Assembly: GCF_000262545.1 (NCBI RefSeq)
Contig: NZ_JH660660.1
Location: 1,450,975 to 1,514,974, forward strand
Source: Prevotella bivia DSM 20514
Lineage (GTDB): Bacteria; Bacteroidota; Bacteroidia; Bacteroidales; Bacteroidaceae
Direction: 5' to 3'
DNA length: 64,000 nucleotides
Position numbers and translations under genes: made by a program. The notes beneath the pieces were generated by a model. It searched no databases, was not told the origin of the DNA, and was given only the letters and a program-made list of their open reading frames with translations. Every line of letters begins with the position of its first letter. Within the stretch, counting starts at the first letter, position 1. Below are positions 1 through 26,545 of this stretch, one piece after another.

Positions 1-2
1 AT

Positions 3-338
3 GACATTCAGAGCAAAGTACTTGCCTTTGCTTTTGGACTATCTGCAGAGATAGAGCGTAACCTAATCAGCCAGCGTACCAAAGAGGCTTTGGCAAGACT
101 GAAATCAGAAGGAAAACAAATAGGACGAGGTTATGGGAAAAGGAATAATCAACTTAATTCTAAGTGTTTGGCAAAACATGAGTATATATTAAAGAAGTTG
201 TCTGAAGGTGTTAGCATACCAAATATTGCTAAAAAGATAAAGGTTGCAAGAGGAACGTTATACAGGTATCTTGCATATACAGAAATAAGACTGCCGACAA
301 AATCTGTTAATGGTAGATGGAAAAGAGGAATCTATTAA
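3..338 (+). CDS. Serine site-specific recombinase (DNA invertase), C-terminal part
   Basis: The reading frame is open from the left window edge, so the N-terminal catalytic serine part lies outside. The visible part begins DIQSKVLAFAFGLSAEIERN and continues ISQRTKEALARLKSEGK, which is the E-helix of Hin/Gin/resolvase-type recombinases. A C-terminal helix-turn-helix follows (around GVSIPNIAKKIKVARGTLYRYL). The family makes double-strand exchanges at short inverted sites through a serine-DNA intermediate. The gene ends five bases before the 18-bp repeat that is shared with the methyltransferase gene, so it is the natural candidate enzyme for inverting the specificity cassettes to its right. That assignment is inference from position; the family call is firm. 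Confidence 0.88.
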   Translation, partial: DIQSKVLAFAFGLSAEIERNLISQRTKEALARLKSEGKQIGRGYGKRNNQLNSKCLAKHEYILKKLSEGVSIPNIAKKIKVARGTLYRYLAYTEIRLPTKSVNGRWKRGIY

Positions 339-777
339 TAGGGTCCAGTTTTTGAAGACTGACCCTAAAGCTCGATATCAGGGGTATTCGTTCTACTTTA
401 GGGAGGGATTGTGCTGGAGTGATATAAATACTACTTTTTTAAAATGTCGCAAAAAAGAAAAAAGTATTCATGATGTTAAAAGTATGAGTATTTTCGGAGT
501 TTCTGATTTAGTTGAAGAAGACTATATCATCACTCTTATCAATTCCACTTTTATTAGTTATTACGTTGATAATTTTGTAAACAACACTCAGACATTCCAA
601 ATAAACGATGCACGACAATTACCAGTCATTATCCCTCGAAAGGAAGAGAACGAACAGACAGTAAAGTTTGTTACGAAAGCGATACAAATAAAGAAAGGTG
701 CTGCATTAGCTAATGAATCACTTGATACCATTCAAAAAGAAGTTGACTTATATATTGAGAAGTTGTATCATCTTTAA
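310..777 (+). CDS. Silent target-recognition cassette 1 of the methyltransferase
   Basis: This 155-codon frame matches the C-terminal tail of the large methyltransferase at 1179-5018, but on the opposite strand. Shared blocks in order are VQFLKT, FYFREG-CW, a YIITLINSTFISYYVDNF block, NNT-FQINDARQLPVIIP, and a C-terminal helix ending KLYHL. These are features of the TaqI/Eco57I-type specificity domain. Homology starts at VQFLKT (base 343); the first 11 codons overlap the end of the invertase gene and are probably not a real start. There is no convincing promoter. I read it as a stored, unexpressed alternative tail that becomes the methyltransferase C-terminus after inversion at 343-360/1632-1649. 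It could also be translated at a low level as a free domain. Confidence 0.75.
   Translation: MVDGKEESINRVQFLKTDPKARYQGYSFYFREGLCWSDINTTFLKCRKKEKSIHDVKSMSIFGVSDLVEEDYIITLINSTFISYYVDNFVNNTQTFQINDARQLPVIIPRKEENEQTVKFVTKAIQIKKGAALANESLDTIQKEVDLYIEKLYHL
343..360 (+). repeat. Inversion site A, cassette copy (18 bp)
   Basis: These 18 bases, GTCCAGTTTTTGAAGACT, encode VQFLKT in cassette 1. They occur identically and in the same reading frame on the minus strand at 1632-1649. Inversion of the DNA between the two copies would join the methyltransferase body to cassette 1 without a frameshift. One arm (AGTTTTTGAAGA) resembles the half-site of Hin/Gin-type serine invertases. That resemblance is partial. 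Confidence 0.75.
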
Positions 778-779
778 AG

Positions 780-1193
780 ATGGAGGGATTTTGTTGGAAT
801 TTAATTAATGGAACGAGAAGTACTAATGACTTAAAATTCCGTATGGCTCCTATTGGCGTTAATGATGTAGGAGCTATGACTTTGCGTCTATGTAAAAATA
901 GATTCCTTTCAAATAACTTAATTTTAGCGATTGGAAATTCTATAATAACAAATAAATATACTGAAGCATATATCAATTTTACAGTTAACTTTCAAGTAAA
1001 TGATTGTAGACAAATACCGATTGTTATACCTAATGCCGAAGAGTTGCAAAATTTCGAATCACTTGTGAATAAGGCTATTAATTTCAAAAAGTCAGCTTCG
1101 AACCTGTATTCCGAAGCTGACCATATAATTGATGAATTACTACTTATTAAGCAGGAAATAGACAAAGCTGTGCTATCACTATATCGAATATAA
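780..1193 (+). CDS. Silent target-recognition cassette 2 of the methyltransferase
   Basis: This second partial tail begins MEGFCWNLINGT two bases after cassette 1 stops. It aligns with the methyltransferase tail from REGFCW onward: a short variable segment, FTVNFQVNDCRQIPIVIP (compare FQINDARQLPIIIP), then a helical end reading LYRI. It lacks the piece between VQFLKT and EGFCW, as expected if it is exchanged at the second, internal crossover point (782-798/1556-1572). Its last 15 bases are also the last 15 bases of the methyltransferase gene on the other strand. It is probably silent and has no promoter. The sequence between the conserved blocks differs from the other two tails, as expected for alternative DNA-recognition specificities. 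Confidence 0.72.
   Translation: MEGFCWNLINGTRSTNDLKFRMAPIGVNDVGAMTLRLCKNRFLSNNLILAIGNSIITNKYTEAYINFTVNFQVNDCRQIPIVIPNAEELQNFESLVNKAINFKKSASNLYSEADHIIDELLLIKQEIDKAVLSLYRI
782..798 (+). repeat. Inversion site B, cassette 2 copy (17 bp)
   Basis: GGAGGGATTTTGTTGGA encodes EGFCW in cassette 2 and is identical, in frame, to the minus-strand copy at 1556-1572. Cassette 1 carries a version with two changes at 402-418. It is a second possible crossover point for exchanging the tail. Confidence 0.6.
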
Positions 1194-4100
1194 TTTGAAT
1201 ACAACTTTGTCAAGTTCAGATTGTTTGTCAATAAGTTCTTCTCCTGCAAAATCGATAGAAATTGTAGAAGAAAAATAGGCTTTCTTAGCTGCAATGGAGG
1301 CTTCACTAATTTCCTTGAATATCTCTAACTCATGAGATGAAGGTATGATTATTGGCAGTTGACGAGCATCATTGATCTGAAAATGAGAGGTGTTATTGAT
1401 AAAGTTATCTACATACAGGCTTATAAACTCTGAGTTTATCAAGCTAACATAATACCAGTCAGGTAGTTTTGTCATCGTAAAAAGACTCATGCTTAGTACG
1501 TCGAATACTCCATTTGTTTTAATTCTTGCCTTCAAATAGGTTGAGTTGACATCTATCCAACAAAATCCCTCCCTAAAATAGAATTGGGGATTGCGGACAA
1601 CAGGCATACCTTCACCTTTCTTGCCAGAATTAGTCTTCAAAAACTGGACGTTCTCCTTAGACCATGCAATGGCAAATGGTGTTTCAAGATACCAACGGTT
1701 TCCATCTTTGTCTCCTTTATCATAAGGTACATAATAGTTCTTTGAGGTATCGATCCCATTTTCTTTTTCTTCTGTAGTCAACTCATCTACATTAGCCAGT
1801 TCGCTATCTTCGATAATTTTGTAGATATATCCTTGACCAAAGATATCTCTTCCATATTGCTCCTTAAGTGTATCAAACAATGCTGCAATTTCTTTCTCAG
1901 AAAGAGAATCTAGGAATTCCTTTTCATTAGCGAAGTTTGCCATCTTTGGAACACTGACTTTTTTCTTTTTTACAGCTTCGGCTAATTTTTTTGGACGTGA
2001 ATCAATAATATTTTTTGCCCATTTTGTAGAACGACGAACAGCGATATATTTTCCGTTGTTTGCTGTTGCAAGCCCTTGTCCTCCTTCTGTCAAACAGCCA
2101 AGTAGGGCAACGTCACCAGGCTTTAAACTGGCACGATAAGTTTCAAGTTCTTTTTGGTTCTTTGCAATCTTCTTTGATGTTTCTATTTTATCCCACCATT
2201 TATCAAACAACTCTTTTACCTTTTGTCCATATAATTCATATATGCGAAGATTCAAGTCTGTAGGTTTAAAGATAACAGAATTTTGCGTATTAATAAACAC
2301 ACTCTGTTCAATTGGTGTATATTGTAACGGGGTTGCAAGGTCTTTAGTCCCATCGTAGAAACGAACTTTATGTCCTTCTGGCATAGGAAGATTTGTAGTC
2401 TGGGTTATACAAGTATCAACCATTACAGCCTCAAAAGGATTAGCCGTATCAAAGATATAGTCTATTCGCTTTGACAAAATGAGGTCGCGCATGTTGCGTT
2501 TAGTCTGTGTAGTCCAAAAAGTCTTAGGAGTTATATAGCTAAGCGATCCACCTTCCTTACAAAGAGAATGTCCCCTGAAGGTAAACAAGTTATATGTATC
2601 ATCTGAGAAGCCGAACTCTTTCTCATAACATTTTTTATCCTCTTCTTTGACTCCTTTTGTTGAAATATAAGGTGGATTACCTATCACTATGTCAAATTTT
2701 CCCTTGAGACAGAACATCCACTCTGGATCAAAGAATGTTGAAACAGAATTTTGGTCGTATGGATTCCATTCTGTTATTTGTTTTACAGCAGCTTCAAAGC
2801 CTACGATTTCACCTTTGCTCTTCTCTTTTTTGATATTATTTTCTAGAGAGCATATTTGAGCATTAAGTTCTTCACGTTTTTTCTTATTGATGTCTTCACG
2901 GAATATTGCATCTGGCGATTCTACTACACCAAATAGTGTTACCTCGGCAGGGTGAGTTTTGTCAACCCATACTTCTTTTTCATATTCTTTAAGGTTAACT
3001 CGTAAGCGCGCTACTTCATTTTCTAAAACGGAAATCACAGAAGGGTCAGGTTGAGTAGAGTGTTTTACGATGTAATTCATTATCTCTTCTCGCTTTGCCT
3101 CATCCATACGCTGGCTTTGTCTTTTTGCTTTTCTTCCTTTTGCCAAAAAGTGTTCGTTTCGTATGTTGAGAAGTTCCTCCTTAAGTTGAGAAAGCTTCTC
3201 GTCAGCGGTCCAATCATTTTCATAACTTCTGATGTCAGCACTAATAAGAGAGTTTGCTGCGACAAACTTTGTTTCGAGATTAGGTAAAGTATTGATACCG
3301 AAGTTAGTTTCAGGACTATTGAAGTCCACATTAGTCTGTTCACAGATAAGAGAGATGAAGAAACGTAATTTACAAATAAGCATGGCAATAGGCTGAATAT
3401 CCACGCCATATACGCAATTTTCTATAATAGCCAATTTAAGGTTGTATCTGTCTATTTTGCCTTTACAGAGTATTTCTTGCAGTTCAACAATTTGATGGAG
3501 GCAGCCCATAGGAAAGGCTCCTGAACCACATGCAGGGTCAAGTATCTTGATGTTTCTTAGAGCATCAGCAACATCATTGCATGTGCTGGTATTCCAATTA
3601 GTCGGTATATTCTTCTTCACAAACAATTCATTCAGGCTATTTGCATCAATGTCTAAATTATTTTTTCCAAGAAGATAATTTTTTATAGACTCATCCACCA
3701 TATAATCAACTATCTCGCGTGGAGTATAGAATGATCCGGTGGATTTTCGTGCGGATTCATGCGTTTCTTCATTGAAATCTGCCAATAAATTCTCAAAAAC
3801 CCGCCCAAGCAATTCTGGATCAAGTGAAACTACTGCATCTGTAGGAGAATTTTCTTCTATAGTAAAGTTATATTGGTTCAGCAAGTTGATAAGACCGGGG
3901 CGTATTTCATCATCATTAAAGAAAAGAATATTAGGAATAAATGCACGATATTTAAGGTTTCCATTAGGCGACCGCATTCCATTGCGGCTGAAACCATCAT
4001 ATAGCACATCGTACTCCTGCTTTAGATATAACCCTTTTGGTTTATCTAAGCACTCAAACAATCCACCATTGAGAAATGGAACTTTAGCAAACAACTTTAC

Positions 4101-5018
4101 CACATCATCTTCTGAAATGCTAAACATTTCAGCATAACGATACAGATTGCGAGTGTCACGTGCAGATTTTGCTGTCGCAAATTGTCGTTGATTGCCATCT
4201 TCATCTATGATGGCACAATTCAATGTAGCAAAAAATAAGTTCTGCAGTATTGCATTATAATAATTACCCTCATCTTTGGAATATGGATTGAAACCTACCA
4301 AGATATTCTTTAAATATGTTATGTCAAAAATCTTATTGGGTACTAATTCCTTTTGTTTTATAAACCATACAAAGAGCAACCGTGTTATAAGACGTATCAA
4401 CTTTACATTCATATTCTCTCTATCATCCTTTTCCGTATTGGGATTGTTGGGAAAAGTAACATGCACCTCATCAGACAATGCCCATTGATACCAAGAATAC
4501 AATTGGGTGTAGAAATCTTTTGACAAGGCTTCTACTGAGAAAGTATCCTTTAGGTTAGCGAAATTCACCCCCTTACTTTGTAGGTCATAGAAACGGCGGA
4601 CAGCCGTATTATAATAAATTCCACTATCACCAAACACAAATGTGTATCGTTTCGGTGAAGTACGTTCATCTTTAATGTCACACACAAAAGAGAGTCTCCA
4701 ATTGCTTCCGTCATCGAAAACAACTAAAGCAGCATCAACCAAATAGCGAAGATAAGGCTTAACTATCTGTCGTAATCCAACTCGGCGATTTGTGACAGAA
4801 GAATTGGTTTGAATATAGAACAGACCGATTTCGTAATTATCGGTTGTAGTTTTCTGACCAAGGTAATAGCCTTTGCCCTCTGAGGGGTCAAGTTCCAATT
4901 GTTCCGGCACTTGGCGAATGGTCTTAGCCTCTATGAAATTGGTTAAGAACCGTATCCATTCATTCAGATTGAACTTTTTTTGAAATATAGTTCTGAGTTG
5001 TTCCGCTGTGTATGCCAT
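1179..5018 (-). CDS. Eco57I/PglX-like adenine-specific DNA methyltransferase with switchable specificity tail
   Basis: This 1279-residue protein should methylate adenine N6 in a DNA target and supply sequence specificity to the adjacent helicase-nuclease. Landmarks are an N-terminal domain of about 400 residues, the motif X region TGSFYTPREIVDYMV (427-441), the SAM-binding motif DPACGSG (494-500), a charged coiled-coil insertion (about 600-740), the catalytic NPPY motif (781-784) and a TaqI-type recognition domain at the C-terminus. The last 156 residues after VQFLKT are the exchangeable part. I see no clear PD-ExK nuclease in the N-terminus, so cleavage probably depends on the partner. The ATG lies 75 bases after the helicase stop, which suggests an operon. 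Related families are type IIG enzymes, BREX PglX and DISARM DrmMI. Confidence 0.9.
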   Translation of the reverse strand: MAYTAEQLRTIFQKKFNLNEWIRFLTNFIEAKTIRQVPEQLELDPSEGKGYYLGQKTTTDNYEIGLFYIQTNSSVTNRRVGLRQIVKPYLRYLVDAALVVFDDGSNWRLSFVCDIKDERTSPKRYTFVFGDSGIYYNTAVRRFYDLQSKGVNFANLKDTFSVEALSKDFYTQLYSWYQWALSDEVHVTFPNNPNTEKDDRENMNVKLIRLITRLLFVWFIKQKELVPNKIFDITYLKNILVGFNPYSKDEGNYYNAILQNLFFATLNCAIIDEDGNQRQFATAKSARDTRNLYRYAEMFSISEDDVVKLFAKVPFLNGGLFECLDKPKGLYLKQEYDVLYDGFSRNGMRSPNGNLKYRAFIPNILFFNDDEIRPGLINLLNQYNFTIEENSPTDAVVSLDPELLGRVFENLLADFNEETHESARKSTGSFYTPREIVDYMVDESIKNYLLGKNNLDIDANSLNELFVKKNIPTNWNTSTCNDVADALRNIKILDPACGSGAFPMGCLHQIVELQEILCKGKIDRYNLKLAIIENCVYGVDIQPIAMLICKLRFFISLICEQTNVDFNSPETNFGINTLPNLETKFVAANSLISADIRSYENDWTADEKLSQLKEELLNIRNEHFLAKGRKAKRQSQRMDEAKREEIMNYIVKHSTQPDPSVISVLENEVARLRVNLKEYEKEVWVDKTHPAEVTLFGVVESPDAIFREDINKKKREELNAQICSLENNIKKEKSKGEIVGFEAAVKQITEWNPYDQNSVSTFFDPEWMFCLKGKFDIVIGNPPYISTKGVKEEDKKCYEKEFGFSDDTYNLFTFRGHSLCKEGGSLSYITPKTFWTTQTKRNMRDLILSKRIDYIFDTANPFEAVMVDTCITQTTNLPMPEGHKVRFYDGTKDLATPLQYTPIEQSVFINTQNSVIFKPTDLNLRIYELYGQKVKELFDKWWDKIETSKKIAKNQKELETYRASLKPGDVALLGCLTEGGQGLATANNGKYIAVRRSTKWAKNIIDSRPKKLAEAVKKKKVSVPKMANFANEKEFLDSLSEKEIAALFDTLKEQYGRDIFGQGYIYKIIEDSELANVDELTTEEKENGIDTSKNYYVPYDKGDKDGNRWYLETPFAIAWSKENVQFLKTNSGKKGEGMPVVRNPQFYFREGFCWIDVNSTYLKARIKTNGVFDVLSMSLFTMTKLPDWYYVSLINSEFISLYVDNFINNTSHFQINDARQLPIIIPSSHELEIFKEISEASIAAKKAYFSSTISIDFAGEELIDKQSELDKVVFKLYSI
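1556..1572 (-). repeat. Inversion site B, expressed copy (17 bp)
   Basis: This is the inverted partner of 782-798, within the methyltransferase tail at the REGFCW block. Inversion here would replace the tail with cassette 2. Part of the conservation could reflect protein constraint rather than recombinase recognition, so it is less certain than site A. Confidence 0.55.
1632..1649 (-). repeat. Inversion site A, expressed copy (18 bp)
   Basis: This is the inverted partner of 343-360, inside the methyltransferase gene at codons 1124-1129 (VQFLKT). It marks the point where the constant part of the protein ends and the exchangeable tail begins. Flanking bases on both sides of the repeat differ between the two copies. 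Confidence 0.75.
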
Positions 5019-5093
5019 AATTTACTCGAATTTTTAATTTGTCATTGAACATCCTTACGCTCGGCAAAGAAAACCTATTTTCTTTGTACTCGC

Positions 5094-8000
5094 TTACTCG
5101 AATGTTTCGGATGTGATTATTTCTGATTGTTGATATAGACTCTCTATCTCCTTTCTTTCCTCGCTGATATAATAATGGTCATACAAACCCTCCAATCGCA
5201 TTGAAAGTATCGGTTTGAGAGTTGCCAACTGAACCGTTTTCTTTTGTTTGTTTAATTCTCGGCTCAACCTATTCAGGCTTAATGTGAGGTTAGAGAATAT
5301 GCCTTCATTGACATATTCCTCTATCACTTGTATCTTGGCATATATGTCATCTGAATCGAACATACGTTTCATTTCACGTAAGAATGCTAATGCAGTGATA
5401 GCATTTTTGTCTTTCTTTTTCTCAGCAATAGAAATCTCCGTGGTTTCAACTACCGAAGTTGCCTGCTCATAGGCAGCGAGAGCTTTACGTACATGTTTAT
5501 AATGAGCATCTTTAACAGCCTCCATGTTGCCAGTCGGCTCATCTTGTTTTGCACGTAACCATTCAGCTGCTTGCAAGAACTCTATTTGCATAGGGGCTTC
5601 GTTACCCGTTATTCGATAGAACTGTGATCGTTGTCCTGTGGTAATATATACAATGGTTGATAGCGGGGCGACATCATGCGGTCGATGCTTGGGCAAGCGA
5701 ACCGTACGGCTCTTGTAAGGTAAAGTCTTTATCTTGTTGTAAAGTTCTTTGTTCTTTGCATAAAGCTCACGTATTTCACGTAAAAGTTCAAGTTGCTTGT
5801 CAACGTTGTCACGCACTTTATCATCAAAGAGCTGGAATTCACGCAGCATCTCCTCACGTGAATAAACCTGTGCATCTTCGCCAAGTGCAGAATGGAACCC
5901 TTGCAGTTTTATAAGGGCATTGGTATAGAGTTGTATCTGTTTATCACCATCCTTAGACGGATAGAACATGTAATTATAGATATGGTCAGATGTGGATCCA
6001 ATACGATTTACACGACCAATACGCTGCATTAGGCGCGTCGCATTCCATGGAGAATCATAATTGACAATAATATTTGAACGATGTAAATTCACACCCTCAG
6101 CCAGCACATCCGATGAAATAATAATGTTGAACTGATTTTCTTTTTCGCCGGAATAATTGGCATCAAAATTCGCCCGAATACTATTCAAAACAGTTTTTCT
6201 ATTGGAAGCACTAACAACAAGTATGTCAGTCCAGTGCAATTCGTTTTTTAGTCTGTCACCTAAATAGTTAATGGTGTCAACACTTTCTGAGAAAATAACA
6301 AGTTTTCCTTCCTTGTTGAGCTCCACCTCTTTGTCATTTATGACTTTCGTAGGGCTCATCAATTCAGTTTCAAGAAGTCCTTTGAATTTATCGTATTTCG
6401 GGTCTTTTTCAACCTTGTCCCAAAGAGCTGTCAGTCTTTCAAGCTTTTCTACATCCTCACGAAGTTTCTTGATGTATTCAGGGTTAAAGTCTTCCTGAGT
6501 AAAAAGAATATCCTCTTTGTCATAGCCGTGATTCAGAGCTTTCTCGATAATAACATCAATCTCTACATCGTTTGCTAACATTCCTTTCACATCAATATCG
6601 GGTGCAATAAGAATATTGTCTTCATCCCACATTTTAATCATATCATTGGTGATACGCAAGAATGTATGCAGCGACTTTTTGAAAGCATAAAAACTGCTTT
6701 CAAGTCGTTTTACCATGTGAACACGGAAAATACCAGAGAACACACGAGCAAACTGCACTGCATTACGATACTTCGAAGCTTTTTCACCGATAATGTACTC
6801 AATGGCGCGGTATCTCGCGAAATGTAGCCCCACACCACTAGGGTTGTCTTCATCAGGTGTATCGGTAAGTATTGTAATGGTATCGTAGAACAACTCACTC
6901 AGTTCCTCGTCCAACTGATATATACATTCATTTGGCTGCTCAACATTAGGAAAATGGATGTTCTGCAGTTTGAGATCTGCTTTGTAATCATCGTTGTTCC
7001 AAAGATTCTTGCGAGTTCGGCGAACAAGGATTTTATCAAGTACTTTTGTGCGCATTTCTTCATAAATTTTATCAGCAGCAGCGGTTATCTCGCTGTTGTC
7101 TGTCTTGCCACGCTTGCGCATAAGGTCATTATACTGTTTAATCCAGGGCTGAAACAAAGTTGTAATGTTGGTAATGCCATCAAGGGTGGGCTTGCGAGCA
7201 TTTTGGAATAACAGTATCAGGTTACGAAAATCTTCTGGACGATTATTGAGTGGCGTGGCAGACAACAATATAACTTTCTTTTGTATACCCTCTATCAGTC
7301 CCTCATTGATACGTGGAGCTTTACATATACGTTGCAAATCATCATATCGACCAGACGTGTCTGTGCGGAAATTATGTGCTTCATCAACAATTACAAGGTC
7401 AAAAATTTCTGGATCATCGTAATTATCACTCCCTGCGATGATTTTGTTCAAACTTCCGTTTGTAACGAATTGAGTATACTTTGTGAGGCTAAAGTCTTTA
7501 AAAGTGTCACGCCAATTTTCTTTTACAGCAGGTGGATATATTACGAGAATCTTGGTATTCTTGCCATTTTCTTCGACAAAACGTTTAACAATCATGGCTG
7601 CCACAATAGTCTTTCCTGTACCGACCACATCGGCAAGAAAGAAACCATTGTACTCCTTTAGCATCTGAAATCCTTGAATGACTGCATCCTTCTGGTATTT
7701 CAACTGCATATAACCTTTTGGCAAATCGAGTGCAAAATCATCTTCAACCTGATTACCAAAGGCATCTATCAAGATTTTCATAAAGATTTCATATGGAGTA
7801 GGAAGATTTTCGAGGTGGGTCTTTTTACGGATTCGCTCAATATCTTCGGCTGTAATGGCTACTCCCTCGTTCCAGAGAGTTTCAAACTCATTCTTGCAAT
7901 ATGCCACATCGTCATAATCTTTCATGGCAACATTTAACTCGTATCGAGGTGGTTGAGTAATGCCCAACCCTGAATCTGAAATATTAGACGACCCCATCAA

Positions 8001-8453
8001 CACCCATCCGTCTGTGTTGGGACTAAAATTCTGAGGCAGACACAGATAAAACTTGGCATGAAGATTCCTTGACTTGTGAATGCGCATCTGCAACTTGCCC
8101 GAAACTATGTCATCACAAAGTTGAAGAATTCCATCTTCAACATCAGGTGAATATTGAGCATCCTTGACATCTTGTATGAAGTACTTCGTGTAAATTTCTC
8201 TGGCTTCATCGTCACCGTCAAGCATAAGCAATGCCTGATTATGCTTTCTGAAAATACTATCAATATTGATCCCCACAAGAATCTTAATGTCTTGTACATT
8301 TGCCAATTCTTTGCGTAGTTTGAAGTAGCCGGACGAACGAAAATAGCCAACAACTGCAAGGAAAGAATGGAAGTTCGACATTCCATCAGCTATCCCCTTA
8401 AATTTATTAAAGAGAGTATTACCAATGGTATTATTGAAAAATTTAGTACTCAT
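5094..8453 (-). CDS. PLD-nuclease/SNF2-family helicase fusion protein
   Basis: This 1119-residue protein probably serves as the nuclease/translocase effector of the defence operon. The N-terminal 200 residues carry a phospholipase-D-type nuclease half-site: LHAKFYLCLP (His132, Lys134) followed by VLMGSSNISDSGLG. The SNF2 motor follows, with a Walker A motif (GTGKT, 278-282), DEAH (357-360), the LLSATPLNN motif III, and a helicase C domain with SSDVLAEGVNL and LMQRIGRVNRIGS. The remaining 300 residues are helical. PLD nucleases usually act as dimers with two HxK sites. The start is an ATG seven bases after the XRE stop. DISARM splits these activities between DrmC and DrmD; the fusion with only a methyltransferase partner differs from that layout. 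Confidence 0.9.
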   Translation of the reverse strand: MSTKFFNNTIGNTLFNKFKGIADGMSNFHSFLAVVGYFRSSGYFKLRKELANVQDIKILVGINIDSIFRKHNQALLMLDGDDEAREIYTKYFIQDVKDAQYSPDVEDGILQLCDDIVSGKLQMRIHKSRNLHAKFYLCLPQNFSPNTDGWVLMGSSNISDSGLGITQPPRYELNVAMKDYDDVAYCKNEFETLWNEGVAITAEDIERIRKKTHLENLPTPYEIFMKILIDAFGNQVEDDFALDLPKGYMQLKYQKDAVIQGFQMLKEYNGFFLADVVGTGKTIVAAMIVKRFVEENGKNTKILVIYPPAVKENWRDTFKDFSLTKYTQFVTNGSLNKIIAGSDNYDDPEIFDLVIVDEAHNFRTDTSGRYDDLQRICKAPRINEGLIEGIQKKVILLSATPLNNRPEDFRNLILLFQNARKPTLDGITNITTLFQPWIKQYNDLMRKRGKTDNSEITAAADKIYEEMRTKVLDKILVRRTRKNLWNNDDYKADLKLQNIHFPNVEQPNECIYQLDEELSELFYDTITILTDTPDEDNPSGVGLHFARYRAIEYIIGEKASKYRNAVQFARVFSGIFRVHMVKRLESSFYAFKKSLHTFLRITNDMIKMWDEDNILIAPDIDVKGMLANDVEIDVIIEKALNHGYDKEDILFTQEDFNPEYIKKLREDVEKLERLTALWDKVEKDPKYDKFKGLLETELMSPTKVINDKEVELNKEGKLVIFSESVDTINYLGDRLKNELHWTDILVVSASNRKTVLNSIRANFDANYSGEKENQFNIIISSDVLAEGVNLHRSNIIVNYDSPWNATRLMQRIGRVNRIGSTSDHIYNYMFYPSKDGDKQIQLYTNALIKLQGFHSALGEDAQVYSREEMLREFQLFDDKVRDNVDKQLELLREIRELYAKNKELYNKIKTLPYKSRTVRLPKHRPHDVAPLSTIVYITTGQRSQFYRITGNEAPMQIEFLQAAEWLRAKQDEPTGNMEAVKDAHYKHVRKALAAYEQATSVVETTEISIAEKKKDKNAITALAFLREMKRMFDSDDIYAKIQVIEEYVNEGIFSNLTLSLNRLSRELNKQKKTVQLATLKPILSMRLEGLYDHYYISEERKEIESLYQQSEIITSETFE

Positions 8454-8460
8454 AAACTTT

Positions 8461-8664
8461 CTACTTTATTAATTCTTTGGGTGAAACATTGAGCAAGTCT
8501 GCCACTTTGAAGATGGTAGCAAGATTAGGTTGCTTGCGATTGCAAACGTAGGCGTTGGTAATGCTGAAACTCATGCCCAACTCTTTGGCGAGCCACGTTT
8601 GGGTGATACCTCGCTTCTTCAAATGATCCTTGATAAGATTGCTATGCTCTTTCTTCTGTCCCAT
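8461..8664 (-). CDS. Small XRE-family transcription regulator (controller-like)
   Basis: A 67-residue protein that is essentially one helix-turn-helix domain: ITQTWLAKELGMSFSITNAY is the scaffold and recognition helix pair, ending in LLNVSPKELIK. It is the first gene of the minus-strand operon and stops seven bases before the helicase starts. Small XRE proteins commonly act as controller proteins of restriction-modification systems, timing methylase and nuclease expression after entry into a new host. That role is inferred from position and size. No clear C-box palindrome was found upstream. Confidence 0.85.
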   Translation of the reverse strand: MGQKKEHSNLIKDHLKKRGITQTWLAKELGMSFSITNAYVCNRKQPNLATIFKVADLLNVSPKELIK

Positions 8665-9020: not shown

Positions 9021-9332
9021 ATGACGATAAACGAATTACTGGGCAAACCTGTATGGCAGATGACTGGTGAAGAATTACTTTTCCTTGCACAACACAGTAA
9101 TATATTCACGTGCGGGGAATCAACCAAGGCTTCTTCCTCCAAAGAAGAAAAGCGATATGTGTATGGATTGGCTGGCATAGCACGTCTTTTCGGATGCAGC
9201 TTGCCCACAGCCAACCGTATCAAACAAAGTGGCAAAATCAATCGTGCCATTACGCAAGTAGGTCGCAAGATTATTGTTGATGCTGACCTTGCACTTGAAT
9301 TGGCAGGACGAAAGACGGGAGGGCGAAGATGA
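9021..9332 (+). CDS. DUF3853 family protein (excisionase-like DNA-binding protein)
   Basis: This 103-residue protein matches the DUF3853 pattern common at the head of Bacteroidetes mobilizable elements. The middle part, VYGLAGIARLFGCSLPTANR, looks like a MerR/excisionase-type winged helix, followed by KINRAITQVGRKIIVDADLA, the wing-like hairpin typical of such domains. Its stop overlaps the start of the RepA-like gene by four bases, so the two are translationally coupled. A role in excision control or replication initiation is likely but not established for the family. Confidence 0.85.
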   Translation: MTINELLGKPVWQMTGEELLFLAQHSNIFTCGESTKASSSKEEKRYVYGLAGIARLFGCSLPTANRIKQSGKINRAITQVGRKIIVDADLALELAGRKTGGRR

Positions 9333-10378
9333 ACACGACTGATTATGAAAACATTTGGCAAAAGTCGCTCATTCATGTAACGGATGAGTTTGCGCTTCCG
9401 CCCGTTGTGCTGCAAGCAGGTGAAGCCATTATTGGCACATTAGGTAACTTCAGTGTGTCGACAGGTAAGGCAAAAGCAAAGAAGACTTTCAATGTGAGTG
9501 CCATCGTTGCAGCAGCCCTTATCAATGGACAAGTATTGGAATATCGTGCTTCATTTCCAGAATTGAAAAGAAATATTCTCTACTTCGATACAGAGCAAAG
9601 TCCCTATCACTGCCAACTTGTGATGCAACGCATTCTGCGGTTGGCAGGATTGCCGATAGATCGAGAGCCAGAGCATTTGAGGTTCAGCCATCTCAGAGCG
9701 ATTGCAGACCCAAACGAGCGCAGAGAAATCATCCGTTATGCTATTTACAACACACCCAATGTGGGCTTGGTGGTCATTGATGGTATTCGTGACTTGATGC
9801 TTGATATCAACAACTCTACGGAGGCTACCAAGTTAGTGGGCGACCTGATGCAATGGACGAGTGAACAGAATATCCATATTCAGACCGTCTTGCACCTCAA
9901 CAAGGGCGATGACAATGCACGAGGGCATATCGGTACAGAACTTAACAACAAAGCAGAGACCGTCCTCCAAATTACAAGGGATAACACTATGCCCGAGCGC
10001 AGTATCGTTGCTCCTGCTATCATTCGCTCCAAGCCTTTTGAAAAATTTGCCTTTCGACTTAAGGAGGGTGAAGATGAGATTTGCATTCCCCAATTAGATT
10101 TCTCGTATTCCGACAATGAACGGAAGTCGCATCGTTTCTCCTACCAAGAGTTAAGCACTAACGAACATCGAAAGGCGTTAGAACAAGTATTCTCTACAAG
10201 CGAAATTTTGCCATATAGTACACTAATTGTAGCTCTTAAAGAGGCTTATGCTAAGATTGTGGGGCTATCCTATGGGCAAACTAAACTCAAGGAACTTTTG
10301 CAATTCTTGCTCAACAAAGGTATAGTGGTTAAGGAAGAACGAGGAAAATATCGGCTCAGTCATAATTCTCTTCAATAA
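9329..10378 (+). CDS. RepA-like hexameric helicase / AAA ATPase
   Basis: A 349-residue RecA-fold ATPase of the RepA/AAA_25 type found in Bacteroidetes mobilizable elements. A nucleotide-binding loop is expected near GNFSVSTGKAKAKKTF (about 33-49). A Walker B-like strand is VGLVVIDGIRDLM, followed by TEQ-type and H-containing sensor segments (TVLHLNKGDDNARGHIGTEL). The C-terminus is a winged-helix-like region. The N-terminal ATG overlaps the DUF3853 stop. It probably unwinds the element's DNA during replication of the excised or transferred form, together with the primase downstream. Confidence 0.85.
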   Translation: MNTTDYENIWQKSLIHVTDEFALPPVVLQAGEAIIGTLGNFSVSTGKAKAKKTFNVSAIVAAALINGQVLEYRASFPELKRNILYFDTEQSPYHCQLVMQRILRLAGLPIDREPEHLRFSHLRAIADPNERREIIRYAIYNTPNVGLVVIDGIRDLMLDINNSTEATKLVGDLMQWTSEQNIHIQTVLHLNKGDDNARGHIGTELNNKAETVLQITRDNTMPERSIVAPAIIRSKPFEKFAFRLKEGEDEICIPQLDFSYSDNERKSHRFSYQELSTNEHRKALEQVFSTSEILPYSTLIVALKEAYAKIVGLSYGQTKLKELLQFLLNKGIVVKEERGKYRLSHNSLQ

Positions 10379-10381
10379 AAC

Positions 10382-10489
10382 CTTTGGTCGGTCGGACACA
10401 GGCTATATATACCTGAACCGATCCGACCAAAGAGAAACAAACTTGGTCGGACGTAAAGGTGAGCCTATAGTGAACGACCGTCCGACCAA
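10382..10489 (+). repeat. Origin-like block of four TTGGTCGG repeats in two palindromes
   Basis: Two inverted repeat pairs lie back to back in the 182-base gap between the helicase and primase genes. The first is CTTTGGTCGG (10382-10391) with CCGACCAAAG (10423-10432). The second is TTGGTCGGACG (10443-10453) with CGTCCGACCAA (10479-10489). The four arms share one core, TTGGTCGG, like iterons. The position next to replication genes suggests an origin of replication or an operator for the primase gene. Both readings are inference. Confidence 0.7.
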
Positions 10490-10560
10490 TACTAAAACCT
10501 TCAGCCTCCAAAAGAAAAAGGCTGAGATTTATTCATTTCAAACATCAAAACAAAATCACA

Positions 10561-11451
10561 ATGGAGATACAAAATATCAAGCAAATCTCTATCACAGATT
10601 ATTTGCAGCAACAGGGTTATTCACCTGCACGAATACAAGGTATTCATTTTTGGTACTGCTCCCCACTACGCAACGAAAGTACACCATCATTCAAAGTAAA
10701 TACAGAGCGCAACCAATGGTATGACTTTGGAACTGGCGAACATGGAGATATTATTGACCTTGTACGTACTTTACAGCATTGTACTATGTACGAAGCCATT
10801 GACTTTCTAATCGGTTCAAAACAAATAGTGCATCAAGATTTTTCTTTTGGCGGTGAAAGAAAAACCTCTAAGCACAAATTAGAGATCATATCTGTGCAAT
10901 CACTTACCAATCCTTATTTGTTACGATACATTGCAGAGCGAGGAATATCTCTCAGCATCGCTAATAGATTCTGTTCTGAAATTCGATACAATAATACCAA
11001 TCGGACATACTATGCCATTGGATTTGCAAACGATGCTGACGGTTGGGAAATTCGTAGTCCTTATTTCAAAGGCTGCATTGCTCCAAAAGCGATTACAACT
11101 ATTAGTAAAGGCACAGACGTATTACAAATCTTTGAAGGGTTTATGGATTTTCTTTCGTGGCAAACGCTAAATCCTTCTTCAACTTGCGACACCATAGTTC
11201 TTAATTCTCTGACTCTTTTGCCACGCATTCAAGAGAAGATAAAAGGCTACAAACAAGTGGAGAGTTTTCTGGACAGTGACGATGCGGGGCGAAAATCGTT
11301 TGAAATTTTGAAGCAGTTTTGTCCACACATTATAGACGGTTCTGTACGCTACCGAGAGCATAAAGACCTCAACGAATGGCTCGTTGCTCAATCCAAAATC
11401 AAAAAGAAGCTGACATTATTACCGACCACGAAGCGTGGTATCAGAAGATAG
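10561..11451 (+). CDS. CHC2 zinc-finger/Toprim DNA primase of the mobile element
   Basis: A 296-residue DnaG-like primase. The N-terminal half resembles the CHC2 zinc-ribbon domain (IHFWYCSPLRNESTPSFKVN, then WYDFGTGEHGDIIDLV), although the Cys/His set looks incomplete. The Toprim domain contains TDVLQIFEGFMDFLS with the catalytic Glu and VESFLDSDDAGRKS with the DxD metal site. It would lay down primers for replication of the element, working with the RepA-like helicase. Its start lies after the palindrome block, so it probably has separate control. Toprim motifs make the call solid. Confidence 0.88.
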   Translation: MEIQNIKQISITDYLQQQGYSPARIQGIHFWYCSPLRNESTPSFKVNTERNQWYDFGTGEHGDIIDLVRTLQHCTMYEAIDFLIGSKQIVHQDFSFGGERKTSKHKLEIISVQSLTNPYLLRYIAERGISLSIANRFCSEIRYNNTNRTYYAIGFANDADGWEIRSPYFKGCIAPKAITTISKGTDVLQIFEGFMDFLSWQTLNPSSTCDTIVLNSLTLLPRIQEKIKGYKQVESFLDSDDAGRKSFEILKQFCPHIIDGSVRYREHKDLNEWLVAQSKIKKKLTLLPTTKRGIRR

Positions 11452-11501
11452 AGTTTATCAGGGAAGCAAGTTTGTGTTTTGAGTATCTCAAAACCTACTT
11501 G

Positions 11502-11520
11502 CTCCCACCTTTGGGAGGTG
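11502..11520 (+). other. Overlapping hairpins upstream of mobA (candidate oriT component)
   Basis: CTCCCA-cctt-TGGGAG (11502-11517) and the alternative CACCT-ttggg-AGGTG (11506-11520) can form two mutually exclusive stems, 34-50 bases before the mobilization operon. Transfer origins of mobilizable elements often contain such inverted repeats next to the relaxosome genes. No nic site could be assigned by eye. Confidence 0.35.
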
Positions 11521-11553
11521 AAAATCCCGTTGGTCTCATCAAAAAAATAAAAA

Positions 11554-11901
11554 ATGGAACAGAAAAATAAAGGTGGACGACCCACTAAGACTTTATCAGA
11601 GAAACGGAAATATCAAGTGCTTCTTCGACTTAATACAATGGAGTATTACACCTTGTTGGGAAAAGCACGTGAAGCCTCCATTTCTCGAACAGAATTTTTA
11701 CGACTGCTCATTATAAATGCAGAAGTAAAGAGCCGAATCAAGCCAGAGGAAATGCGACTCATCCGTACGGTTTCGGGCATGGCAAACAATCTCAATCAGA
11801 TAGCCCATCGACTCAATGCTTTCGGAATCTCTGCACTCAATGAAGATTTGAATGCTCTGAAACAACTTATTAACGAACTTATGAAACGCTTGAAACCATG
11901 A
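11554..11901 (+). CDS. MobA/MobC-type relaxosome accessory protein
   Basis: A 115-residue basic protein starting MEQKNKGGRPTKTLSEKRKY. It has a ribbon-helix-helix fold (KYQVLLRLNTMEYYTLLGKA, SISRTEFLRLLI) and the family's typical end, RTVSGMANNLNQIAHRLN followed by a helix. Such proteins bind the transfer origin and help the relaxase nick it. The stop overlaps the relaxase start by four bases, indicating coupled translation. Confidence 0.88.
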   Translation: MEQKNKGGRPTKTLSEKRKYQVLLRLNTMEYYTLLGKAREASISRTEFLRLLIINAEVKSRIKPEEMRLIRTVSGMANNLNQIAHRLNAFGISALNEDLNALKQLINELMKRLKP

Positions 11902-12824
11902 TTGCAAAAATTATCAAAGGAACAAACTTCAGTGGAGTTGTCAATTATATGCTTAGCAAACGTGAAGATGAAGCCAAGGTTTTACAAGCCATAGGTGTAC
12001 GCAGTTCTTTGCCAAATGACATTGCACACGACTTCAACTTGCAAGCCTCTATGCGTCCAAGTGTACAGAAGCCTGTTTGTCATACGATACTCTCGTTCTC
12101 TGCTAGAGATGCCGAGCGATTGACAGATGATGTGATGGTCAAGATTGCCAATGAATATATAGAGAAAATGGGCTACGGAGATACGCAGAGCCTTATCGTA
12201 AGGCACAGCGATTGCCAGCATCCGCATCTTCACATTTGTATCAACCGCATTGGTAATAAAAGCAAGACCATTAGCGACCGCAATGAGAAGTATCGTTCAA
12301 CGAAGATTTGCCGTGAACTGACAGAGCGTTATGGTTTGACCATTGGAGAAGGTAAGCGAGCCGTAAATCGCCACCGATTGCGAGGCGAAGACAAGTTACG
12401 CTATGAGATATTTGATGCTATCAACTCTATATTACCTCAATCTAAGACTTGGAAAGATTTTGTTGCAGAATTAGAGCAACAAGATATTACAACTTGTTTC
12501 AAAACAAAAGGTAATACCGATGATGTACAAGGAATCATCTTTGAAAAAGACGGATGTAGTTTCAGTGGCTCAAAGATAGACCGCTCATGCTCTTTCTCTC
12601 GCCTCAATGCTGAGATAGAACAAAATTCTCACAAACAAGAGAAAATTCATCTACAAAATGAGCCTATGGCAGATTCTGTAGATGAAAGCAATTTCATTAC
12701 CGACCTATCCGAAGCAATTAGTGAAGTGTTTTCTATGCCAACACCAAGTAATGGCGTAGATGTTGATGAACTTCGATTTCAAAAGAAACTCCGTAATAGA
12801 GCTAATCGCAAACGTAGAATTTAA
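11898..12824 (+). CDS. Relaxase / mobilization nuclease (MobB-type)
   Basis: A 308-residue MobP-like relaxase. It begins MIAKIIKGTNFSGVVNYMLS, the standard relaxase N-terminus. It carries CHTILSFSARDAERLTD, the metal-binding HPHLHICINRI motif (around residue 111) and the RSTKICRELTERYGL region. It should nick the transfer origin and lead the DNA into a helper conjugation system. The C-terminal 80 residues are variable. It lies in the mobilization operon with the RHH protein before it and a membrane protein 21 bases after it. Confidence 0.92.
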   Translation: MIAKIIKGTNFSGVVNYMLSKREDEAKVLQAIGVRSSLPNDIAHDFNLQASMRPSVQKPVCHTILSFSARDAERLTDDVMVKIANEYIEKMGYGDTQSLIVRHSDCQHPHLHICINRIGNKSKTISDRNEKYRSTKICRELTERYGLTIGEGKRAVNRHRLRGEDKLRYEIFDAINSILPQSKTWKDFVAELEQQDITTCFKTKGNTDDVQGIIFEKDGCSFSGSKIDRSCSFSRLNAEIEQNSHKQEKIHLQNEPMADSVDESNFITDLSEAISEVFSMPTPSNGVDVDELRFQKKLRNRANRKRRI

Positions 12825-13549: not shown

Positions 13550-14647
13550 CTATTTGCTTGCAGATTTATTAGACACATCTACCTTATTGAGTCCTTGTTC
13601 CACCTCTTCTATTGTGGGCAATTTTGAAACAATTTCTTTCGGTATGATATTATTCAATTCATAAGCAGCTACACCTAATGGCTTATTGATGCCATTGAAT
13701 GCCCACTCAACTTTTGTTTCATCTTTTGTTTTACAAATAAGAAGTCCTATCGTAGAATTATCTTCTTCCTGCTTGAGCAGTTTGTCCACTGCAGTAACGT
13801 AAAAGTTGAGTTTGCCTGCATATTCTGGCTGAAAAGCATGCGTCTTTAACTCTACAACCACATAGCATTTAAGGCGAATATGGTAAAAGAGCATATCAAT
13901 TCGATAAGACGTTCCTGATACCACAAGTTCTACCTGCCTGCCACAAAACGAAAAGCCTTTGCCCAGCTCCAAAAGTAACTGGGTAATGTGTTTTGTCAAT
14001 TCATCTTCCAAATCCCTTTCGTCATAGTCCTCTCGCATTGTAAGGAAATCAAAGTTGTAGGGGTCTTTTAGTGTCTCCTGAGCAAGTTTGCTCTGTGGGG
14101 CAGGTAAGTGTTCCTTAAAATTGGTAATAGCCTTTCCTTTTTGTTGATAGAAGTTTGCCGTCAGTGCATTTTCTAAAGCGGAGCGGCTCCAACCATTGTT
14201 TACAGTTTCTTGTAAATAGAAGTTTGCCTCCTCTATAGTTTTGCATTTGGTGATGATTTCACAATGGTGCCTCCATGGGACCTGAAAGAGTAAATCTTCT
14301 AATTCTCCACCAGCTTGGTGGAGAATTGTATCAGACAGAGAATAAAAGGCATACCATTTCTTAATGTACCACAAGTTTGTTTTTGAAAAACCACTTTGTC
14401 GAGGAAAAGCCTCTTTGAAATCAAGGCTTATACGCTCTATAATTCCTGCACCCCAACGCTCTTCCGCTTTTAGGGTGACCAAGTCATGGCCTAACTTCCA
14501 ATAAAAGCGCAATAACTCAGAATTTATCTTAACAGCAGCCTTGAGTTGTGCATTACGATATTGCGATTTGATATTCTCCAACCATTCAGCATATTCTGAT
14601 AGTTGGCCCTGAGGGTTATTCGCAGAGAGTATTATTTCATTATCCAT
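13550..14647 (-). CDS. DUF1016/YhcG-type PD-(D/E)XK nuclease family protein
   Basis: A 365-residue protein with the two-part YhcG layout. The N-terminal DUF1016 domain has INSELLRFYWKLGHDLVT and FSKTNLWYIKKWY. The C-terminal nuclease-like domain has RIDMLFYHIRLKCYVVVELKTH, where D and the E-L-K triad form the PD-(D/E)XK core. Family members occur near mobile elements and in defence or DNA-processing contexts, but their substrate is not settled. Here it is cargo between the mobilization genes and the integrase, on the integrase strand. It may protect the element or process its DNA. Confidence 0.85.
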   Translation of the reverse strand: MDNEIILSANNPQGQLSEYAEWLENIKSQYRNAQLKAAVKINSELLRFYWKLGHDLVTLKAEERWGAGIIERISLDFKEAFPRQSGFSKTNLWYIKKWYAFYSLSDTILHQAGGELEDLLFQVPWRHHCEIITKCKTIEEANFYLQETVNNGWSRSALENALTANFYQQKGKAITNFKEHLPAPQSKLAQETLKDPYNFDFLTMREDYDERDLEDELTKHITQLLLELGKGFSFCGRQVELVVSGTSYRIDMLFYHIRLKCYVVVELKTHAFQPEYAGKLNFYVTAVDKLLKQEEDNSTIGLLICKTKDETKVEWAFNGINKPLGVAAYELNNIIPKEIVSKLPTIEEVEQGLNKVDVSNKSASK

Positions 14648-22182: not shown

Positions 22183-22283
22183 GAAGTTTATTCCTTTTTA
22201 CTATCGTTAATAAGTCGTGCAAATTATATGCCAGCATCGTAATGTGTTATATTTGAGTATATTTCTTTCTTTTCCCGGCTTAT

Positions 22284-22402
22284 ACCCTTCTATTTTGGAA
22301 GGGTCGTTTTTCAAAATGAAAAAATGATTGTCTCAGATAGTTGAAAGTCCACTTCAGACAGGTCTTATTATTCCGAAAATACACCTTTCCATTTTGGGAA
22401 GG
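22284..22402 (+). promoter_or_regulatory. Two palindromes, candidate enhancer sites for the kdp activator
   Basis: ACCCTTC-7-GAAGGGT (22284-22304) and CCTTTCC-attttg-GGAAGG (22384-22402) share the pattern CCTT-C-attttGG-GAAGG. They lie about 100 and 200 bases upstream of the sigma-54 promoter, the usual distance for NtrC-type enhancer sites. They may also control the divergent kdpD operon. A third weak palindrome, CGAGA/TCTCG, lies near 22420-22441. Confidence 0.6.
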
Positions 22403-22477
22403 ATAAAATAACTCAATTTCGAGAGATAAAATTATTTCTCGTTGGTTATGAGCTCCTTACGGAGTGTCTGTCTCATC

Positions 22478-22492
22478 TGGCATGTGCATTGC
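22478..22492 (+). promoter_or_regulatory. Sigma-54 promoter of the kdp operon
   Basis: TGGCATGTGCATTGC has the invariant GG and GC dinucleotides exactly ten bases apart and matches TGGCAC-N5-TTGC in nearly every position. Transcription would start near 22504. The first small reading frame starts at 22545. The adjacent NtrC-type activator supports it. Confidence 0.8.
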
Positions 22493-22544
22493 CCATAGAG
22501 AAGTAGAATTTTATAACAGAAGTTTAACTCTAAAAAAGTATGAA

Positions 22545-22646
22545 ATGACGGAATTATTTTCAGTAGGTTTTGCAGTCTGTATGCTCAGTGGCATCGGCTG
22601 CTTTGTGATGTTCAACAAATGTATCGACTGGTTCGAGAAAATCTAA
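22545..22646 (+). CDS. 33-residue single-membrane-span microprotein ahead of kdpF
   Basis: The frame begins MTELFSVGFAVCMLSGIG, with one membrane segment, and ends CIDWFEKI. It starts about 40 bases after the predicted sigma-54 transcription start and stops 12 bases before kdpF. Size and topology resemble KdpF, so it may be another small stabilising subunit of the Kdp pump. I do not know a named family for it. Longer upstream starts in this frame would lie at or before the promoter and are unlikely. Confidence 0.6.
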   Translation: MTELFSVGFAVCMLSGIGCFVMFNKCIDWFEKI

Positions 22647-22658
22647 AAAACTCAAAAA

Positions 22659-22742
22659 ATGATGTACACAGCTTTATTTATCGTAGGCATCCTCCTGTTC
22701 GGCTATATGATGTATGTACTTCTGAAGCCGGAAAGGTTCTAA
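22659..22742 (+). CDS. kdpF: KdpF-like potassium-transporting ATPase small subunit
   Basis: This 27-residue hydrophobic peptide begins MMYTALFIVGILLFGYMM and ends in the KdpF-like tail LLKPERF. Classical KdpF is 29 residues with one transmembrane helix and a similar KPE(R/K)F end. It lies 19 bases before kdpA, in the position of kdpF in E. coli. It stabilises the KdpFABC complex in the membrane. The second Met could also be the start. Confidence 0.85.
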   Translation: MMYTALFIVGILLFGYMMYVLLKPERF

Positions 22743-22761
22743 ACTAAAAAACAATTTAGGT

Positions 22762-24468: not shown

Positions 24469-24490
24469 TCATTTAGCAATAACAAGAAGT

Positions 24491-26524: not shown

Positions 26525-26545
26525 TCTCTAAAAACTATCATAACA

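Follow-up and report, generated by a model that had tools for sequence, protein, structure and literature searches.

The DNA analyzed here (the window) is a stretch of 64,000 nucleotides from Prevotella bivia DSM 20514 (contig NZ_JH660660.1, positions 1,450,975 to 1,514,974). At its left end, a gene for a PglX/Eco57I-like N6-adenine DNA methyltransferase, paired with a PLD-Snf2 helicase gene, faces two partial gene copies of opposite orientation and the end of a serine invertase gene (Table 1), a layout that we examined as a candidate switch of target specificity. An initial annotation had described an Eco57I/PglX-type methyltransferase whose expressed tail on the minus strand is matched by two silent, diverged tails on the plus strand. 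Indeed, the enzyme matches the Pfam Eco57I and N6_Mtase families as well as the PADLOC PglX models, and the silent tails are open reading frames (ORFs) on the plus strand (310-777 and 780-1193). The three tails share 50-55% DNA identity when aligned from the 17-bp site to the tail ends.

Table 1. Features of the candidate switch locus and the adjoining gene pair, in window coordinates (TRD, target recognition domain; aa, amino acids; HTH, helix-turn-helix)
Feature	Position	Strand	Remarks
Mpi-family serine invertase, C-terminal 111 aa	3..338	+	ORF; whole 226-aa gene at L002:9633-10313, start upstream of window
Site a, left arm	343..360	+	GTCCAGTTTTTGAAGACT, peptide VQFLKT; perfect inverted repeat, 18 bp
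Silent cassette B	343..777	+	Short leader DPKARYQGYSFYFRE plus TRD tail; open frame; PglX-family matches
Third, imperfect site b copy	402..418	+	Inside silent tail B; GGAGGGATTGTGCTGGA, 2 mismatches
Silent cassette C	780..1193	+	TRD tail only; open frame; PglX-family match
Site b, left arm	782..798	+	GGAGGGATTTTGTTGGA, peptide EGFCW; perfect inverted repeat, 17 bp
Expressed tail A, variable part of TRD	1179..1572	-	Conservation drop directly after site b; TRD fold
PglX/Eco57I-like N6-adenine DNA methyltransferase, 1279 aa	1179..5018	-	Pfam Eco57I 4.9e-30, N6_Mtase; PADLOC PglX/type IIG models
Site b, right arm	1556..1572	-	Inside expressed methyltransferase gene
Leader L1, between sites a and b of expressed gene	1573..1631	-	NSGKKGEGMPVVRNPQFYFR
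Site a, right arm	1632..1649	-	Inside expressed methyltransferase gene
Partner PLD-Snf2 helicase, 1119 aa	5094..8453	-	Pfam Helicase_C, ResIII, SNF2, PLDc_2; PADLOC HKD+Snf2
Small HTH protein, likely regulator	8461..8664	-	Upstream of helicase

Nested inverted repeats and the adjacent invertase

Read along the plus strand, the order is a-B-b-C-(A-b-L1-a, all reversed). Both perfect repeat pairs lie exactly where the initial annotation had placed them, and both keep the reading frame. The pairs are nested, such that recombination at a flips 343-1649 and recombination at b flips 782-1572. Of 500 random 1.7-kb sequences matched in trinucleotide composition, 0.8% contained an inverted repeat of at least 17 bp, and site a has two copies genome-wide, even with 2 mismatches allowed. 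In-silico inversion at both perfect pairs produced four DNA states and three intact proteins (1279, 1267 and 1285 aa). A full-length enzyme is restored by inversion at either pair, in keeping with the forecast of at least three methyltransferase versions; with the perfect sites only, there are exactly three. If the imperfect b copy also recombines, the simulation gives, approximately, eight states and six proteins.

The same sites recur in relatives, for which we draw on 80 loci from a scan of 84,980 species genomes. Sites a and b fall at the same codons there, and two leader types recur, NSGKKGEGMPVVRNPQF and the shorter DPKARYQGY. Moreover, the third codon positions of site a (GTC, TTG, AAG) are conserved, with sharp edges, while the adjoining codons vary, which argues that site a functions at the DNA level. 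Silent tail B has its own ATG, which overlaps the end of the invertase gene, and in P. macacae (L013, around 12103) an ATG likewise precedes site a of the silent tail. Such tails could thus be made as free TRD-only proteins. Scans for promoters and terminators at the locus gave no signal above shuffles.

As to the recombinase, the presence of a serine invertase gene beside the first repeat holds up; the gap of five bases reported for it is in fact four, between the end of the stop codon (338) and site a. The protein belongs to the Mpi-family serine DNA invertases (NCBIfam NF009949/PRK13413; 330.5 bits against a cut-off of 272, residues 11-211) and matches the Pfam families Resolvase (114.9 bits) and HTH_7, and no second gene in the genome matches it at an E value of 1e-10. 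Across the 45 loci long enough to judge, tail inverted repeats of at least 17 bp were found in 26/26 with an Mpi-like invertase within 5 kb versus 3/19 without one (Fisher 1.5e-9, kinship uncorrected), and the invertase adjoins the sites in nearly every case. This association supports the invertase as the probable catalyst of inversion at sites a and b.

The putatively exchanged domain and its predicted targets

The tails differ where the initial annotation expected a recognition domain. The expressed tail aligns to residues 708-890 of Salmonella BrxX/PglX (phmmer 1.3e-5), a profile of 27 tails matches residues 752-861 of E. coli BrxX (4.7e-7), and the TRD of PglX has been mapped to residues 662-849 (PMC11341690). 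The AlphaFold model has a mean predicted local distance difference test score (pLDDT) of 59.7, with 77-93 in its final part. Model residues 752-890, which correspond to enzyme residues 1141-1279, match the TRD of CamA (Z 12.8, root-mean-square deviation 3.0, 129 residues) and those of other N6 methyltransferases (M.BseCI, Z 11.6; MmeI, Z 8.5). Conservation among relatives is 0.86-0.93 over residues 1081-1160 and 0.5-0.65 thereafter, so that the variation starts at site b. By homology and modeled fold, then, the swapped part is a TRD, and the Eco57I and N6_Mtase matches together with the TRD fold place the enzyme among the gamma-class N6-adenine methyltransferases with a fused TRD. A type IIG label is not given with confidence, because the N-terminal domain shows no clear nuclease: its model (pLDDT 79.4) resembles known structures only weakly, among them PD-(D/E)XK folds and DrdV (Z <=5.7), no (D/E)xK motif is present among the columns conserved in 75% of relatives, and the N-terminus has no profile match to solved structures.

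Went et al. related the base preceding the methylated A (position -1) to two residues of PglX: C with K802, G with H838, and A with N838 (PMC11341690). Read at the columns aligned to 802/838, tail A (L/H) is predicted to have G before the methylated A, tail B (K/T) to have C, and tail C (G/N) to have A. One of the three -1 signatures is present in 24/25 tails with a readable code, the exception being the expressed tail of locus L026.

Alternative tail orders and rival explanations

The closest loci (L004-L010, L013, L018, and L026-L028) all have the BrxX-like tail, most have silent inverted tails, and an Mpi-like invertase follows where the contig extends further. The comparison of tail order among related genomes, which the initial annotation had proposed as a check, turned up alternatives in three pairs of loci. 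Over 7.2 kb, L008 and L009 share 98.4% identity, which breaks off with the final base of site a; beyond it, the 99 bp of expressed tail before the L009 contig ends match the silent inverted tail of L008 (12261-12163) base for base. A 497-bp module common to P. multiformis (L067) and P. vespertina (L073) is silent in one and in the expressed position in the other, and a 1.4-kb segment common to Pedobacter (L040) and Sphingobacterium (L045) has opposite orientations. In addition, L004 carries a direct-orientation silent tail behind its expressed tail, which matches the prediction for the a-flipped state.

Of the contigs of 78 relatives, 28 stop less than 1 kb past the downstream end of the fixed core, versus 1 within 1 kb upstream of the gene. 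Within the subfamily of the window, where the repeats are shorter than 30 bp, the L018 contig ends inside site a and that of L004 ten bases past site b. These breaks may reflect assembly graphs broken by mixed orientations, for which they would be indirect evidence. The ratio of nonsynonymous to synonymous substitution rates (dN/dS) between L008 and L018 is 0.109 and 0.095 for two silent tails and 0.109 for the expressed tail, and the silent tails have frames open to their ends and keep the TRD core. Never-expressed DNA would not keep a dN/dS of about 0.1.

Taken together, we consider it very probable that site-specific DNA inversion at this locus switches the target specificity of a two-gene modification system, composed of the PLD-Snf2 helicase and the PglX-like N6-adenine methyltransferase. 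The catalytic part of the methyltransferase would stay fixed while its C-terminal TRD is exchanged by the adjacent Mpi-family invertase, presumably acting on both nested pairs, a (18 bp) and b (17 bp). Two inversions would yield the proteins L1+A (as sequenced), L2+B, and L1+C, and the imperfect b copy, if it works, up to six leader-tail combinations. Inversion would take place in living cells of the window strain. Each tail would read its own motif, the tails differing at least in the predicted base before the methylated A, and the helicase would use the marks to restrict foreign DNA.

Several points weigh against this interpretation. The arrangement in the window strain is known from one assembly and thus in one orientation, and the loci with alternative orders come from relatives, none of them from the species of the window. 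The leaders of L008 and L009 differ as well as the tails, so that more than one event separates these two loci, and in some relatives the repeats are long enough that assemblies could break at them even if nothing inverts. Sites a and b have little sequence in common, and because they are so dissimilar we can only infer that one recombinase acts on both. The P values for the association with the invertase are rough, since related loci are not mutually independent. Over the catalytic part of the enzyme, confidence in the AlphaFold model is low. As for the targets, the -1 rule comes from covariation among BREX (bacteriophage exclusion) enzymes and is applied here at low identity; nor is it strict, because Salmonella PglX reads C at -1 despite having T, not K, at position 802.

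Three other explanations were weighed. The one that survives best, although we judge it unlikely, is that inversion is an on/off or stability switch and that only tail A gives an active enzyme. A homologue in Rikenella microfusus (L076) that appears frameshifted in its assembled orientation would fit such a switch, but the TRD core kept in all silent tails under purifying selection would not, and neither would the P. intermedia 17F genome, which shows three motifs where the cloned orientation gives one (PMC5608340).

We give still less credence to an exchange of tails that is rare and proceeds through homologous recombination or through horizontal transfer from strain to strain, with the invertase serving another site. 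Tails and leaders held in common by distant species, the additional leader difference between L008 and L009, and the position of the locus among mobilization genes would all follow from it. However, RecA-dependent exchange would have little to work with in repeats of 17-18 bp, and an unrelated invertase would not account for its co-occurrence with the tail repeats or for its place next to the sites. Finally, that the silent tails are dead remnants of past gene exchange and the repeats conserved protein motifs, with no flipping now, is the least credible explanation and highly improbable: the repeats do fall on conserved peptides and tail B does hold a degenerate b site, but the silent tails have open frames and evolve under the same constraint as the expressed ones, the invertase is intact and the inverted repeats track its gene, near-identical loci show alternative orders, and conservation at the third codon positions of site a is sharply bounded.

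The helicase partner, known systems and published methylomes

In addition to an inversion switch of specificity, which the initial annotation had proposed, the analysis brought out the PLD-Snf2 helicase partner, a layout conserved across a wide family, and a fit to published multi-motif methylomes. A homologue of the helicase lies beside the methyltransferase in 79/80 related loci, which identifies the helicase-methyltransferase pair as the unit; restriction, if any, may require the helicase. A homologue of the small HTH protein, 96% identical, adjoins the same gene pair in L067 and L073. The pair occurs mostly in Bacteroidota and more rarely in metagenome-assembled genomes labeled Treponema, Kiritimatiellae, Victivallales, and others. 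Against DISARM (defense island system associated with restriction-modification) class 1 DrmD, the helicase scored 144.9 bits, below the cut-off of 610. The methyltransferase scored 140.5 bits against NCBIfam BREX-1 MTaseX (cut-off 500) and is thus homologous to that family and not a member of it. The neighboring genes examined comprise the PLD-Snf2 helicase, the HTH protein, and mobilization genes, and include no pglZ, brxC, or other BREX gene, although no dedicated search for pglZ was made. Nor is there the type I set of separate HsdS, HsdM, and HsdR, as the TRD is fused to the methyltransferase and the partner is a PLD-Snf2 helicase.

Switches of the proposed kind are known, best from type I systems. 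In inverting type I loci, recombination between inverted repeats swaps TRDs with silent copies on the opposite strand and so changes specificity within a population (PMC4190663, PMC4948785). The hsdS shufflons of Streptococcus pneumoniae (SpnD39III), Mycoplasma pulmonis (hsd), and Bacteroides resemble the window in exchanging TRDs with silent copies, but their TRDs reside in a separate HsdS. In the window, the methyltransferase itself ends in the TRD and is paired with a PLD-Snf2 helicase, and recombination falls to a serine invertase of the Mpi family. Lactobacillus rhamnosus GG and its relatives have a BREX pglX gene with a truncated second copy and a recombinase, and pglX is reported to be phase variable (PMC7513527, PMC11341690). 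Here, too, a PglX-like gene is accompanied by a partial copy and a site-specific recombinase; in contrast to the window, with its serine-type recombinase, two nested site pairs, and three tails, this BREX system has six genes and a site-specific integrase. Phase-variable methylation is also found with the Campylobacter jejuni type IIG enzyme and type III mod, but there slippage at simple repeats turns the enzyme on or off and does not swap its specificity (PMC13076061, PMC5903667). A 2026 review describes a change of specificity only for recombination of type I hsdS, with types II and III switching on and off (PMC13076061). We found no description of the present switch in the literature searched. 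Its kind is known from type I hsdS and BREX pglX, from which it departs in combining a TRD fused to the enzyme with a helicase partner, a serine invertase, and two site pairs, one nested in the other. With such a switch, sister cells could differ in their DNA marks and phage defenses, and one assembly would display one of several specificities only.

The switch also offers a testable account, with a -1 base predicted for each tail, of methylation motifs that lack assigned genes. In P. intermedia 17F, Pin17FIII (22231-25584) and the convergent Pin17FORF9595 (25608-26525) have been linked to three non-palindromic N6-methyladenine (m6A) motifs, GGNYAG, CCNYAG, and GGYGAB; cloned Pin17FIII gave GGYGAB only, and Pin17FORF9595 alone gave nothing (PMC5608340). 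A homologous gene pair is present in R. microfusus DSM 15922 too, along with three m6A motifs, unpaired like those of 17F, to which no gene has been assigned (PMC5608340). In both, the same kind of methyltransferase lies beside an SNF2 helicase and a convergent second gene, but the tails are of the TaqI_C subfamily, whereas the tail in the window is a BrxX-like TRD. The authors did not propose inversion (PMC5608340). In our set, R. microfusus DSM 15922 is L076. The second ORF of this locus encodes a TaqI-like specificity cassette in inverted orientation, flanked by a perfect inverted repeat of 310 bp and by an Mpi-like invertase. The L076 methyltransferase frame ends at 10544 and resumes in another frame at 10609, and the assembled orientation may be a defective version or an assembly error. 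Invertible specificity may explain the motif sets of both strains.

A broader proposal, to which we assign somewhat less than an even chance, is that these loci form a widespread, mostly Bacteroidota class of two-gene helicase-methyltransferase defense in which an Mpi-family invertase, acting on two nested site pairs, would shuffle two modules of a fused TRD combinatorially, with up to six leader-tail combinations in the window. TaqI_C modules would each set half of the target, and one locus per cell would explain multi-motif methylomes left unassigned. If this is true, the P. intermedia motifs read as {GG, CC} x {NYAG, YGAB}, and a fourth motif, CCYGAB, is predicted.

We also asked whether site b (GAGGGATTTTGT) has a recombinase motif in common with the outer sites found in the TaqI_C subfamily (for some loci GAGCGATTTTGT, in another reading frame), and set this aside. 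The best consensus match was 10/14, a score that 0.5% of the gene's 14-mers attain, so that a shared motif is suggestive only; site a does not fit this candidate.

In other loci, that of P. amnii (L003) included, another type of specificity module takes this place, accompanied by inverted repeats and an invertase of its own. Compared with window positions 1179-8453, L003 is 90% identical in the helicase and 84% in the methyltransferase core, and the module differs from about residue 871. Nearly the same gene pair with a different module implies that whole specificity modules are exchanged between species. P. canoris (L043) has two tandem copies of one 100-bp inverted-repeat arm (relative positions 72-172, 1642-1741, and 1742-1842). 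Viral contigs yielded four distant relatives only, too remote for orientation to be compared, and no plasmid record covered 80% of the enzyme. The Lactobacillus plantarum plasmid NZ_CP113421.1 (L109), from a Firmicute, carries the same SNF2-methyltransferase pair with no silent tail annotated, which indicates that the pair can exist without a switch. A 15.5-kb circular record of B. finegoldii labeled as a plasmid (L110) contains a related methyltransferase and a recombinase that spans the start point; it may be a circularized assembly fragment of such a locus.

Mobilization modules flank the locus, with DUF3853, AAA_25, primase-like, and relaxase genes downstream (window 9021-12824) and AAA_25/Toprim and HTH-like genes upstream of the switch (L002 5897-8642). 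The switch locus is probably cargo of mobilizable elements. The upstream AAA_25/Toprim gene (L002 6190-8250) has a shortened second copy in two pieces (L002 3093-3698), which suggests a decayed neighboring element. Further along the window, a gene on the minus strand (13550-14647) encodes a YhcG/DUF1016 PD-(D/E)XK nuclease that matches the PADLOC candidate defense family PDC-S02.
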